A stretch of DNA of 64,000 nucleotides from Branchiostoma floridae. Taxonomy: Eukaryota; Chordata; Leptocardii; Amphioxiformes; Branchiostomatidae. The stretch's first letter is position 1, and each line of letters starts with the position of its first letter. The position numbers were made by a program, and so were the translations under genes. Location of the stretch: contig NC_049983.1 of the NCBI RefSeq assembly GCF_000003815.2, positions 22,969,800-23,033,799 of the forward strand, written 5' to 3'. Below the pieces are notes generated by a model. That model made no database searches, was not told where the DNA came from, and saw only the letters and a list, made by a program, of their open reading frames with translations. Below, one piece after another: positions 22,907-63,987 of this stretch.

Positions 22907-25900
22907 ATGATTCTTTCACTCTCGCTGCTCCTGGTTTCCATCGCAGGTGTGTCATGCAGAATTTCTGTACTACTAGTTATAACAGCACGCCATGCCGCAT
23001 TTTTTGTTCAGTCGCGTGTACTCAGGCGTAACAATTGTTAGGTAACCTTAAGAAAAAAGGACGTCTTTTGTTTTCGTCTTTTGCGCGTTTTGTGGTGCAT
23101 TTATACTCTCTGATCGCCCACTCTACACTGAGAAGGAACGTATCACATAAAGGACGAAAACGACGCTGCCAAAACTCACGGTTTTAATAGAAGAACACCC
23201 CTTCCACTCTGTGACTTGTTTAAGAGCATTTGCATAACACCTGGTATCGGATCGTAGTAGACGATCGCGTTGCGTTAAAGTACTTATTTCGCCAAAATTC
23301 AACATTTTCTGATTACATTAAAAACATTCACTGGACAGGTGCGTCTGTAGAAAAAGATGCGCCCTTCTTGAGTTATCAAACAACGAATCCTATAAACCGT
23401 ACGTCTAGTCCTGATAATCATGTCACTTTCCCCCTGACGTCATAGCCAGCAAGGTAGCCTGTTCTGTGCCCTGCTGGCACCGCAACTCGCAAAATAAAAC
23501 TTCCTTTTGAAAAGTAGAGAAGCCAACATTAGGACAGCTTCCGAAACCATGTACTAAAAGATGGTTATGCACTGTCTACTTCTCACAAGAATGTTTTATT
23601 TACTGGACACGGTTCCAGCTGCCTTGTTTACTGTGACAGCTAGGGCGGAATTAAGTTGATATTGCCTGGCGGCTACTTTCATTGAATAATACCTGTGATG
23701 GAACGTTGCTTTTGTTTGTGTCATTGGTGACGACGCAAAATAGGGTTTTGCATTCTCAGCCAAATCGAATTTGACGTTAAAGCCGCGGTTAGGAACGTTG
23801 TAAGTCATCTTGCCATTGGGTCAAGGGGGAAGACCTGTCACCTGGGTCAAATCGTAACATCGGTCGGAAAATATGGTTGAGAAGAATTTTTAAAAATTTT
23901 CATCGTCGTACATTTTTATATACCCCATGGCAGACTACACCTCAGTAGGTTTTTTTTTCTACTGGTGAGGTACATTTTGACCGTGTTCTGGTATGAGCTC
24001 TTTCGCAGGGTTTACTGCGCACGTGCGGGCGGCAGGGATCCTGGGACTCGTCAAATCAAGCAGGGACGTTATATAACGTTTTACCAAGGACGTTAAGGTC
24101 ACGGGGTCACACCTGCGTATAAGTCCGTTTGAGGTGCGTATGACGCTCTTAGTCTCTACCAGGCTCCACAGGTCGCGGGAAAAAGAGTACGAATTGGACA
24201 AATATAGATACATAACATGCCAGATGAGTTAGCTGACCGAGAATCACGTTACCTGTTTACGTTTGTCCAATTTCTATTATTTTTACAACGGAGCCTGGTG
24301 GAGGCAAATACTCTCATGCGCGCCTCATACGAACTCAAATATAAACGCAGGTGTGACCCCACCATTATATAACGTCCTTGGTAAAACGTAAAGGCCTCCC
24401 TATAGCTACGGCTGATTAATCAGCCTACGGCTGGTTAAAAGGCTATGGGACGAACGAACGAACGAACGAAGCTCCCGACACAAGAAACCGGTTCACCCTT
24501 GCATGAGGGGTAAGAGGTCAGCCGGGTGCCTCAATCAGGACACACAAAATGAACAAAAGGGCAAAGGACACGAAGATATCTCGATGAAATCGTACGACGT
24601 TGAACAAAAAATAAAAACATAGATATCGCACGACGATATATTGGTTTACTTGCAATAGGCATATCTCCGCTCGCCTACGTCAAAACGTATAGATGCAAAA
24701 TAAATACACGAAAGAGAAGCATTTGAAGGATGTGTAAGCACTCTCATCTGTCGCGTCGAACCGCCAATTGTGACGGACAATTAGAATCGGTCTATTGCCC
24801 TGCGATTGACCCAGTTACTCTCCTTTGACGTCATAACGTACATGTATACGAAATTTGGGACGGGGCTTAGTTGAACCACATTTTGGCGTAACACGCCAAT
24901 CTTGTGACAAAGAGTACAAACTGCATGCGTATACGTACAATGTACGCACACAACGGGATTTGCCGAGGATTTCAACTTAGAACATTTGAATTCTGAGTCT
25001 TTGTATTCAGTATGAAGGTGATTATGATGTCTTCACCACACCTGTCAGCCTGGTATTGAACGGTCGAGTGGCGCTGAATGAAAGGCCGAGGGCTGGCGGA
25101 CAGAAGATGGAGTGGGCCCTGTGGGCATGATTCCTTGCATTCCTGGCGAGAGTTTAAGACGCTGCGCATGCTTAAGACGACTTTCCTCGCGCCGCCCTCG
25201 CGAGTACCTGACTTCGGTTGGGGAGGTAGAAAGCGGTGAAAGGAGAGGGATGGGCTCCGCCTTCCTATACCGTGTCCTAGATACATTTTTTTTTTACTCA
25301 ATGGTCACCACGTAACAAGGCCTGAAGGTCACTTAAAGGTTACGGGTTACATGATTGGAACTGTAACAGCAACTCTTCGCCCTAGGTCAGAAACATCATG
25401 ATTGAGACCAGCCCAATTGCTCACTATGAGTGAGGACTAACTGACCCAATAGGCGAAGCAGGGGTTACGAGGGCTGCTCGGGAGATTCCCTACCCCTATT
25501 TTGGCCGGAATGGTTTGATCCGCTCGGGTGGATGTTCGCACATGTGGCGGGTTCTTTAAGTGCATAGGGACCATAGGGTATGGTTCTCCCCATACACGGG
25601 ACCTCCATTTAACGTCCTATCCGAGGGACGACTCATTTTTCACCTGAGTAAAGTGAGGAAAGTCGTGTAAAGTGCCTTTCCCAAGGGCACAAGACCGGCA
25701 ACACGGCAGGCGAATACACTACCACTGTGCTACGCGGCCCCACATACAGTTGAAAACAACCCACTACCCCTGGCCTGGCCACCATCTAATCTCCAAGCAG
25801 ATTCCTCCGTGGCATTAAAACAGTAACATAAGCTAGGGAACGAGTTAGCCGGCAGAGGAGGATTAATTGGCCACGCGAAATCTGCCGCAGGACGCAACTG

Positions 25901-63700: not shown

Positions 63701-63987
63701 ACCCCGTAAAGCTACTACCGAGTGTTGTAAGCCACCCAGGCGGTGGTGGGATCCTACAGTCTCGAAGGGAGCCCGTCCAATCCGCGATAGACGTGTTACC
63801 AGGTTACTGACCAGTTTGTCTGAAGAGTTACCTTTGCCGCACGTTTCCTTGTGGCCCGTGAGATCCTCCACCATCCTGGTCACCGCGTCTGTAGTCTTCT
63901 TCAGGAAGTCCAGCCTCTCATCAGTGATGGTCATGGTGTCATTTGGGGTCAGACTCGGCCAGGCCTTCTCTCTGCCTCTGTATACAA
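60793..63987 (-). CDS. Copy D: M28-like pseudopeptidase paralogue, last 6 exons (partial)
   Basis: On the minus strand, exons equivalent to 7-12 are 63987-63832, 63078-62914, 62463-62363, 61975-61843, 61471-61354 and 60844-60793. Junctions are GT-AG and phases match copies A-C. Exons 1-6 lie beyond the window. Exon 7 encodes RGREKAWPSLTPNDTMTITD and the helix ending ETCGK. Exon 8 has the DPVSEFP start and the NVTMTV sequon, exon 10 FTGRMRGHC, exon 11 the membrane helix ([20 protein letters not shown]), exon 12 SLPMKENQ. Exon 9 is 2 codons shorter, exon 10 is 2 and exon 11 is 3 codons longer than in A. Outside exon 7 this is the most diverged copy. It is convergent with copy C, so one member of the pair was inverted. 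Confidence 0.82.
60930..61115. repeat. Dispersed repeat shared with 28215-28435
   Basis: AATTTCCTGGATGTATTTGT and GAGCCCTCCATATCTAACCC match the copy A intron 5 repeat. Located in copy D intron 11. Confidence 0.42.
62050..62290 (-). mobile_element. tRNA-derived SINE family 1, copy D intron 9
   Basis: On the minus strand it has a B-box (GGGTTCGAATCC), the body (TTGTGCCCTTTGGAAAGACT, ACTTCAGTTGGGGAGG) and the tail (GGGCTCCGCCTCCCTGTACC, then CAGTGGATAATGACCCACTG). Confidence 0.55.
62735..62800 (+). promoter_or_regulatory. Conserved intron 8 block, copy D, inverted against its gene
   Basis: GTGTGACGTCAGCAAT and CGGTCAAAGGTTG, then CACCCCCGTCCCGT, match the block of A-C. In A-C it runs with transcription; here it reads on the plus strand while copy D is on the minus strand. 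The E-box is not found. Confidence 0.42.
63100..63290. mobile_element. Foldback-like repeat with ATCCGGAT motifs
   Basis: Several GAATCCGGAT / ATTCGGATTC copies in both directions occupy copy D intron 7. Ends are not clear. Confidence 0.45.
63640..63850 (-). repeat. Tandem repeat of exon 7 end plus donor, copy D
   Basis: The true donor lies at 63831. A decayed second copy (CGGCAAGGGTAACTCTTCAG on the minus strand) has its donor at 63652, 179 bases downstream. Confidence 0.65.

Follow-up and report, generated by a model that had tools for sequence, protein, structure and literature searches.

Predicted membrane-anchored M28 pseudopeptidases encoded by a gene cluster in Branchiostoma floridae

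The transferrin receptor and glutamate carboxypeptidase II (GCPII) of the M28B group have membrane-anchored M28 peptidase ectodomains, one of them catalytically dead, and are type II proteins with PA and dimerisation domains. Nicalin, an M28-like chain of 563 amino acids (aa), is presumably a single-pass, catalytically dead subunit of an endoplasmic reticulum complex. Nicastrin, a gamma-secretase subunit, is described as a membrane protein whose aminopeptidase-like ectodomain acts as a substrate receptor, and thus serves as a precedent for such proteins as receptors (PMC2647162). Dead M28-like membrane proteins are, by that account, an already known kind, and an earlier annotation made from the DNA letters only (the sequence-only reading) went too far in calling the locus described here an undescribed system. 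We analyzed a stretch of 64,000 nucleotides of the Branchiostoma floridae genome (the window; G000:C5:22969800-23033799), which holds three complete genes (A, B, and C) and part of a fourth (D) for M28-like proteins. On balance, we lean toward A-C encoding dead M28 surface proteins that are kept by purifying selection for binding without cutting. What is new here is a predicted group of dead M28 proteins at the cell surface, some of whose relatives in the same genome have a complete active site.

Self-comparison revealed repeated blocks of similar exons along the window, and splice-aware modeling gave three complete 12-exon genes, A, B, and C, all on the + strand and with identical exon phases (Table 1). 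The sequence-only reading had proposed three complete genes and one partial gene with matching phases over 22907-63987, and the models returned the same coordinates. AG acceptors and GT donors were found throughout A-C, with the sole exception of a GC donor after exon 3 of B (40629-40630), where A and C have GT. The encoded proteins are 560 aa (A), 560 aa (B), and 567 aa (C) long, and B and C are 92% and 76% identical to A, respectively. For D, exons 7-12 lie within the window (240 aa, 69% identical to A), while exons 1-6 are located past its right end. Chance open frames as the source of A-C were rejected, since all three copies have their 12 exons in register, and a chance origin is also very unlikely because of the Pfam E values and the ratios of nonsynonymous to synonymous substitution (dN/dS) given below.

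In a hidden Markov model search, all three complete proteins matched Pfam M28 (PF04389) above its cut-off of 21.3 bits (A, 35.9 bits; B, 36.2 bits; C, 36.8 bits), with E values of 4.4e-9 to 8.2e-9. Apart from this, A-C gave only two sub-threshold matches at E ≤ 10, to the unrelated families DUF5716_C and PqqF_C_3, which were set aside as chance. A wider alignment (A2) was built from 13 of the 19 modeled loci of the same gene family, and all 13 members match Pfam M28 at E ≤ 1. When compared with the PDB, the A2 profile had its best solved-structure matches in Streptomyces griseus aminopeptidase (1cp7/1f2o, E 9.4e-10) and YwaD (E 4.6e-8), with which the M28 core and ligands 1 and 2 of the metal site are in common; other M28 proteins were also found. 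In separate PDB comparisons, weak matches to AKT kinase and immunoglobulin chains were set aside as chance. Profile-profile comparison of A2 with six prokaryotic proteins gave an alignment of 304 columns that spans the whole catalytic domain (probability 99.9, E 1.7e-32). These six were picked from 22 loci recruited through their similarity to A2, and each of them independently passed the Pfam M28 cut-off. The M28-like ectodomain of the sequence-only reading was thereby recovered in A-C.

For the active site, we took Glu131 of S. griseus aminopeptidase to be the general base. The five metal ligands were numbered after the same enzyme, i.e., His85, Asp97, Glu132, Asp160, and His247 (PMC7522609, Table 1), and the catalytic columns were read from the tree alignment of 17 family rows (A-Q) and 3 prokaryotic rows. 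All four copies keep His as ligand 1 and Asp as ligand 2, and all four have Ser both at the general-base position and at the position of ligand 5. At ligand 3, Ala is found in A, B, and C and Thr in D, while the position of ligand 4 is occupied by Tyr in A, Asp in B and C, and Gln in D. The residue set of an active M28 enzyme (five metal ligands plus the general-base glutamate) is hence present in none of A-D. No catalytic position is missing from two of the prokaryotic yardstick rows, L039 and L040, in which site 4 is occupied by Glu; the third, L038, is incomplete, with His at the base and Arg at ligand 5, which could be either a misalignment or a real change. Without the general base and with ligands 3 and 5 replaced, A-D should not cut peptides, and their inability to do so is a strong prediction. 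A single zinc in M28 proteins is reported to sit usually at sites 2, 3, and 5 (PMC7522609); A-D no longer have two of these, sites 3 and 5, which counts against metal chemistry. For the M28 enzyme AaaA, replacement of two active-site glutamates by alanine gave a stable protein described as non-functional, and its authors report that one mutant retained 7% activity and that neighboring glutamates may substitute (PMC3426542).

A 19-residue hydropathy scan, for which D was completed with the exons located beyond the window, gave just two peaks above 1.6 in all four copies, one at residue 1 and one at residue 520-527, in contrast to the type II transferrin receptor and GCPII. These are read as a predicted signal peptide and a single predicted membrane helix, in agreement with the sequence-only reading, as are the Cys-containing plan (seven Cys residues common to A-C, six of these in D) and the conserved SLPMKENQ that ends the tail of all four copies. 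The number of N-glycosylation motifs is 6 in A, 4 in B, 4 in C, and 7 in D. With ~17 residues, the tail is too short for a signaling domain, and no credible Pfam or PDB family match was obtained for the juxtamembrane region (exons 8-10). From the sequence we infer the secretion, topology, and glycosylation of A-D, as well as their inactivity and that the change went from active to dead. As a sequence-based prediction, the description of A-C as membrane-anchored M28-like pseudopeptidases stands, given the M28 match, the absence of the base and two of the five ligands, and the constraint seen in dN/dS.

A-D differ from secreted M28 aminopeptidases in the loss of the general base and of ligands 3 and 5, and also in their predicted membrane helix and unmatched juxtamembrane region. 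Of the membrane proteins named at the outset, nicastrin gave no match to A-C in Pfam (E ≤ 10), and membership of that family was rejected. At the Glu-Glu pair of M28 enzymes, which we take to correspond to E333 of nicastrin, A-C have Ser-Ala and D has Ser-Thr. In nicastrin, the receptor role is described as tied to this glutamate (PMC2647162). Neither a PA, a dimerisation, nor any other M28B domain was matched by A-C in Pfam, and no transferrin receptor or GCPII entry was among the 28 PDB sequences found at E ≤ 0.1 with the A2 profile; on these two results, membership of the transferrin receptor group was rejected as well. Nicalin was matched weakly by the A2 profile (E 0.0056 over 88 profile positions), with an E value about six million times larger than that of S. 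griseus aminopeptidase. The search proposed along with the sequence-only reading thus returned M28 as significant, nicalin as weak, and neither nicastrin nor the transferrin receptor among the matches listed. When compared with Pfam, the PDB, and the prokaryotic proteins, A-D look like a branch separate from nicastrin. Among the matches listed in searches of the open-access literature (amphioxus M28 genes, M28 pseudoenzymes, and enzymology), a scope that leaves out most subscription papers, no description of the A-D family was found.

In the explanation we favor, A-C would be tandem duplicates that encode type I glycoproteins of the cell surface. They would have arisen from an M28 peptidase family of the same genome, some members of which have the complete catalytic set. 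Their ectodomain would be an aminopeptidase-type M28 domain that no longer hydrolyses peptides, held off the membrane by the region of exons 8-10, and the dead fold would have been retained by purifying selection for binding. The ectodomain would then most likely bind peptides, the N-termini of proteins, or a partner at the cell surface and leave them uncut, as a receptor, decoy, or adhesion protein, and a receptor or adhesion function is what we infer for A-C. Pseudopeptidases of other metallopeptidase families are described as receptors, ligand traps, or regulators in a review of metallopeptidase pseudoenzymes, in whose main text the term M28 is absent (PMC11266112).

We searched the same genome (513,431,437 bases, 431 contigs) and obtained at least 77 matches with B (E ≤ 0.001) and at least 78 with the paralogue H (E ≤ 0.01), mostly single exons. 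The family comprises ~20 loci, of which 19 were modeled (A-S): 8 in the cluster of the window (C5, 22.99-23.08 Mb), 7 at C5 9.92-10.00 Mb, 2 on C19, and 2 on C9. The twentieth (G000:C4:32340097-32345387) is known from match rows alone. The four-gene cluster of the sequence-only reading is there in the sense that four copies lie at the locus, but it belongs to this larger family, in which some loci have a complete catalytic set. Exon phases were imposed in the family models, some of the 3' exons have low scores or are absent, and A-D are the only loci in which exon 1 was found; exon 12 was sought in the other paralogues and could not be placed. All six catalytic positions are complete in 2 of the 17 aligned loci (A-Q), namely, E, which has a frame break in exon 2 and no exons found beyond exon 7, and H, for which a hydrophobic, low-scoring exon 11 candidate suggests a membrane anchor. 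Data for K and L are incomplete, yet each already lacks one catalytic position. Read by eye from their frames, S (outside the A-Q alignment) appears to have a complete catalytic set and R is without the first glutamate. In the paralogue J, both residues of the Glu-Glu pair and the histidine are retained, but J was dropped as catalytically complete upon finding Ala at ligand 2 in the column table; its best solved-structure match is keratinase KP1, which we assume to be the Pseudomonas aminopeptidase PaAP, with the segment ECYHKACDN of J aligned with ECYHSKCDG of KP1. Because H, and S by eye, keep the complete catalytic set, A-D are likely descended from active peptidases.

In the tree, A-D form a clade (support 100/100) nested in a group of 11 loci (support 100/98). 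The ligand-5 histidine is absent from all 10 members of this group with data; in N, a His adjoins the column, and M and O are gapped in this region. The simplest reading would be one early loss of this histidine in the 11-locus group, followed by further losses. The tree is to be read with caution, as the prokaryotic branches are long and join each other, the composition of L038 is unusual, only 42% of the K row is filled, and the relationships among E-H are not resolved. With H, a locus with the complete catalytic set, located in the same cluster, A-C could instead regulate active paralogues, either as partners of intact M28 peptidases (e.g., H) or as competitors for their substrates, and control of active cousins by pseudopeptidases is described as a general pattern (PMC11266112). 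However, the tree splits the 11-locus group with A-D from H at the support given above, and we regard regulation as unlikely, if still credible. Less probable still is a lineage-specific surface recognition repertoire, in which the ~20 loci in several tandem clusters would bind diverse peptides, microbes, or cells, with an early loss of the catalytic histidine in the 11-locus group and later divergence of its members under constraint.

For the preferred reading, in which dead M28 proteins are retained for binding, selection was estimated from pairwise dN/dS (Nei-Gojobori). The six A-D pairs gave 0.20-0.43, and in none of them did any of the 1000 bootstraps reach 1; for the pairs among A-C, which lay within this range, the 95% upper bounds were 0.30-0.55. 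Similar analyses of L/N, M/O, and P/Q gave 0.33, 0.40, and 0.37, respectively (0 of 1000 bootstraps at 1), and the transmembrane segment plus tail, with few sites, gave 0.51 (A/B) and 0.77 (M/O). The coding DNA of A and B is 92.5% identical (1557/1683 bases), and their 11 introns are 50-86% identical, values that are understated by global alignment of unequal lengths. That the cluster consists of decaying duplicates without function would be in keeping with the in-frame stop in D and the frame break of E; this is very improbable, given the intact 12-exon frames of A-C and their low dN/dS, and for A-C themselves decay was rejected on the basis of dN/dS. The pairwise ratios of D are still 0.40-0.43 despite its stop, which is therefore probably recent or an assembly error, and D is probably a recently disabled, decaying copy. 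The earlier argument that intact frames and phases speak for function is thus backed by constraint in A-C and does not carry over to D.

Several points weigh against retention of A-C as dead M28 binding proteins. Exon 3 of D (G000:C5:23036766-23037009, outside the window) has an in-frame TAG and lacks one of the Cys residues common to A-C, so that the intact frames once claimed for all copies hold for A, B, and C. Synonymous divergence between B and C ranges from 0.07 (exon 2) to 0.86 (exon 4), a difference of about twelvefold, and exon 2 alone gives dN/dS of 1.14 (B/C) and 0.94 (C/D). This unevenness is likely due to gene conversion, and ratios from single exons are therefore unsafe; conversion may also bias dN/dS between paralogues, and the ratio is an average over older time and no proof of the present function of each copy. 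Furthermore, the Pfam M28 match spans only residues 85-151 (A), 84-151 (B), and 97-151 (C), and the M28 fold of A-D is a prediction from profile alignment. Since a profile of A-C only aligned with a wider prokaryotic set over just residues 37-217 (probability 98.9), it is the family profile that supports the second half of the M28 domain in A-D. The membrane layout of H is read from low-scoring candidates for exons 10 and 11, and its exons 1, 9, and 12 were not found. Finally, B and C could still bind one metal via ligands 1, 2, and 4. For GPAA1, an M28 enzyme with a single zinc and altered ligands has been modeled (PMC7522609). That A-D likewise keep or have gained other metal-dependent chemistry, at a one-metal site that has been rearranged, is nevertheless the least probable explanation, as A-D have lost the general base and two of the three usual single-zinc sites, and A and D are also without site 4.

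Table 1. Exons of the four gene copies, in window positions
Feature	Position	Strand	Remark	Basis
Gene A	22907-32757	+	12 exons, 560 aa	splice-aware model
A exon 1	22907-22946	+	start codon, most of predicted signal peptide	model, hydropathy
A exon 2	26058-26248	+	predicted M28 domain begins	model, profile alignment
A exon 3	26798-27041	+	M28 core; keeps His (ligand 1) and Asp (ligand 2); Ser-Ala in place of the Glu-Glu pair	model, Pfam, residue table
A exon 4	27376-27569	+	Tyr at metal site 4	model, residue table
A exon 5	28019-28171	+		model
A exon 6	28850-28994	+		model
A exon 7	29231-29386	+	predicted M28 domain ends; Ser at ligand-5 His position	model, residue table
A exon 8	30119-30283	+	juxtamembrane region	model
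A exon 9	30908-31014	+	juxtamembrane region	model
A exon 10	31301-31427	+	juxtamembrane region	model
A exon 11	31952-32060	+	predicted transmembrane helix	model, hydropathy
A exon 12	32706-32757	+	predicted cytosolic tail, end SLPMKENQ	model
Gene B	35875-46602	+	12 exons, 560 aa	splice-aware model
B exon 1	35875-35914	+		model
B exon 2	38769-38959	+		model
B exon 3	40385-40628	+	GC donor; Glu-Glu pair is Ser-Ala	model, residue table
B exon 4	40951-41144	+	metal site 4 Asp kept	model, residue table
B exon 5	42220-42372	+		model
B exon 6	42615-42759	+		model
B exon 7	43492-43647	+	Ser at ligand-5 His position	model, residue table
B exon 8	44280-44444	+		model
B exon 9	44940-45046	+		model
B exon 10	45453-45579	+		model
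B exon 11	45982-46090	+	predicted transmembrane helix	model, hydropathy
B exon 12	46551-46602	+	tail SLPMKENQ	model
Gene C	48727-58163	+	12 exons, 567 aa	splice-aware model
C exon 1	48727-48766	+		model
C exon 2	50684-50874	+		model
C exon 3	51377-51620	+	Glu-Glu pair is Ser-Ala	model, residue table
C exon 4	51957-52150	+	metal site 4 Asp kept	model, residue table
C exon 5	52412-52564	+		model
C exon 6	53080-53224	+		model
C exon 7	53736-53891	+	Ser at ligand-5 His position	model, residue table
C exon 8	54463-54627	+		model
C exon 9	55469-55575	+		model
C exon 10	55992-56139	+		model
C exon 11	56959-57067	+	predicted transmembrane helix	model, hydropathy
C exon 12	58112-58163	+	tail SLPMKENQ	model
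Gene D	63987-60793	-	exons 7-12	splice-aware model
D exon 7	63832-63987	-		model
D exon 8	62914-63078	-		model
D exon 9	62363-62463	-		model
D exon 10	61843-61975	-		model
D exon 11	61354-61471	-	predicted transmembrane helix	model, hydropathy
D exon 12	60793-60844	-	tail SLPMKENQ	model

Other elements were also observed. A 173-bp tandem repeat (2.7 copies, 53857-54323) extends from the 3' end of exon 7 of C into the intron, and similar sequence follows exon 7 of D. Between C and D, the helix-turn-helix domain of a Mos1-type transposase (HTH_48, E 1.5e-9) is encoded at 59787-60134 (+), the sole match above the cut-off when 10 other frames of the window were compared with Pfam. Upstream of A, a 154-bp unit is repeated in tandem (2.8 copies at 6128-6554, with more copies from 5655; region 5655-6576) and contains an exon-like frame starting RWHRLTPTDDELY; its last copy runs into a sub-threshold DUF498 match (17.8 bits versus a cut-off of 33). 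The repeat frame presumably resembles NDUFAF3, and a tandem exon duplication is possible. Elsewhere in the genome, on G000:C2, locus L035 has an uninterrupted 772-aa frame at 1710-4028 (-) with an M28 match (E 1.6e-17), apparently a single-exon gene, which we would presume to resemble the NAALAD/transferrin receptor group.

Within one M28 family, this genome holds a series from complete to eroded active sites, so that comparisons among paralogues with a common gene structure offer a test of how an enzyme turns into a binding protein. To our knowledge, the known dead M28 receptors are old, with few intermediates left. If A-C do bind peptides, receptors based on M28 would have arisen once more, in addition to nicastrin.

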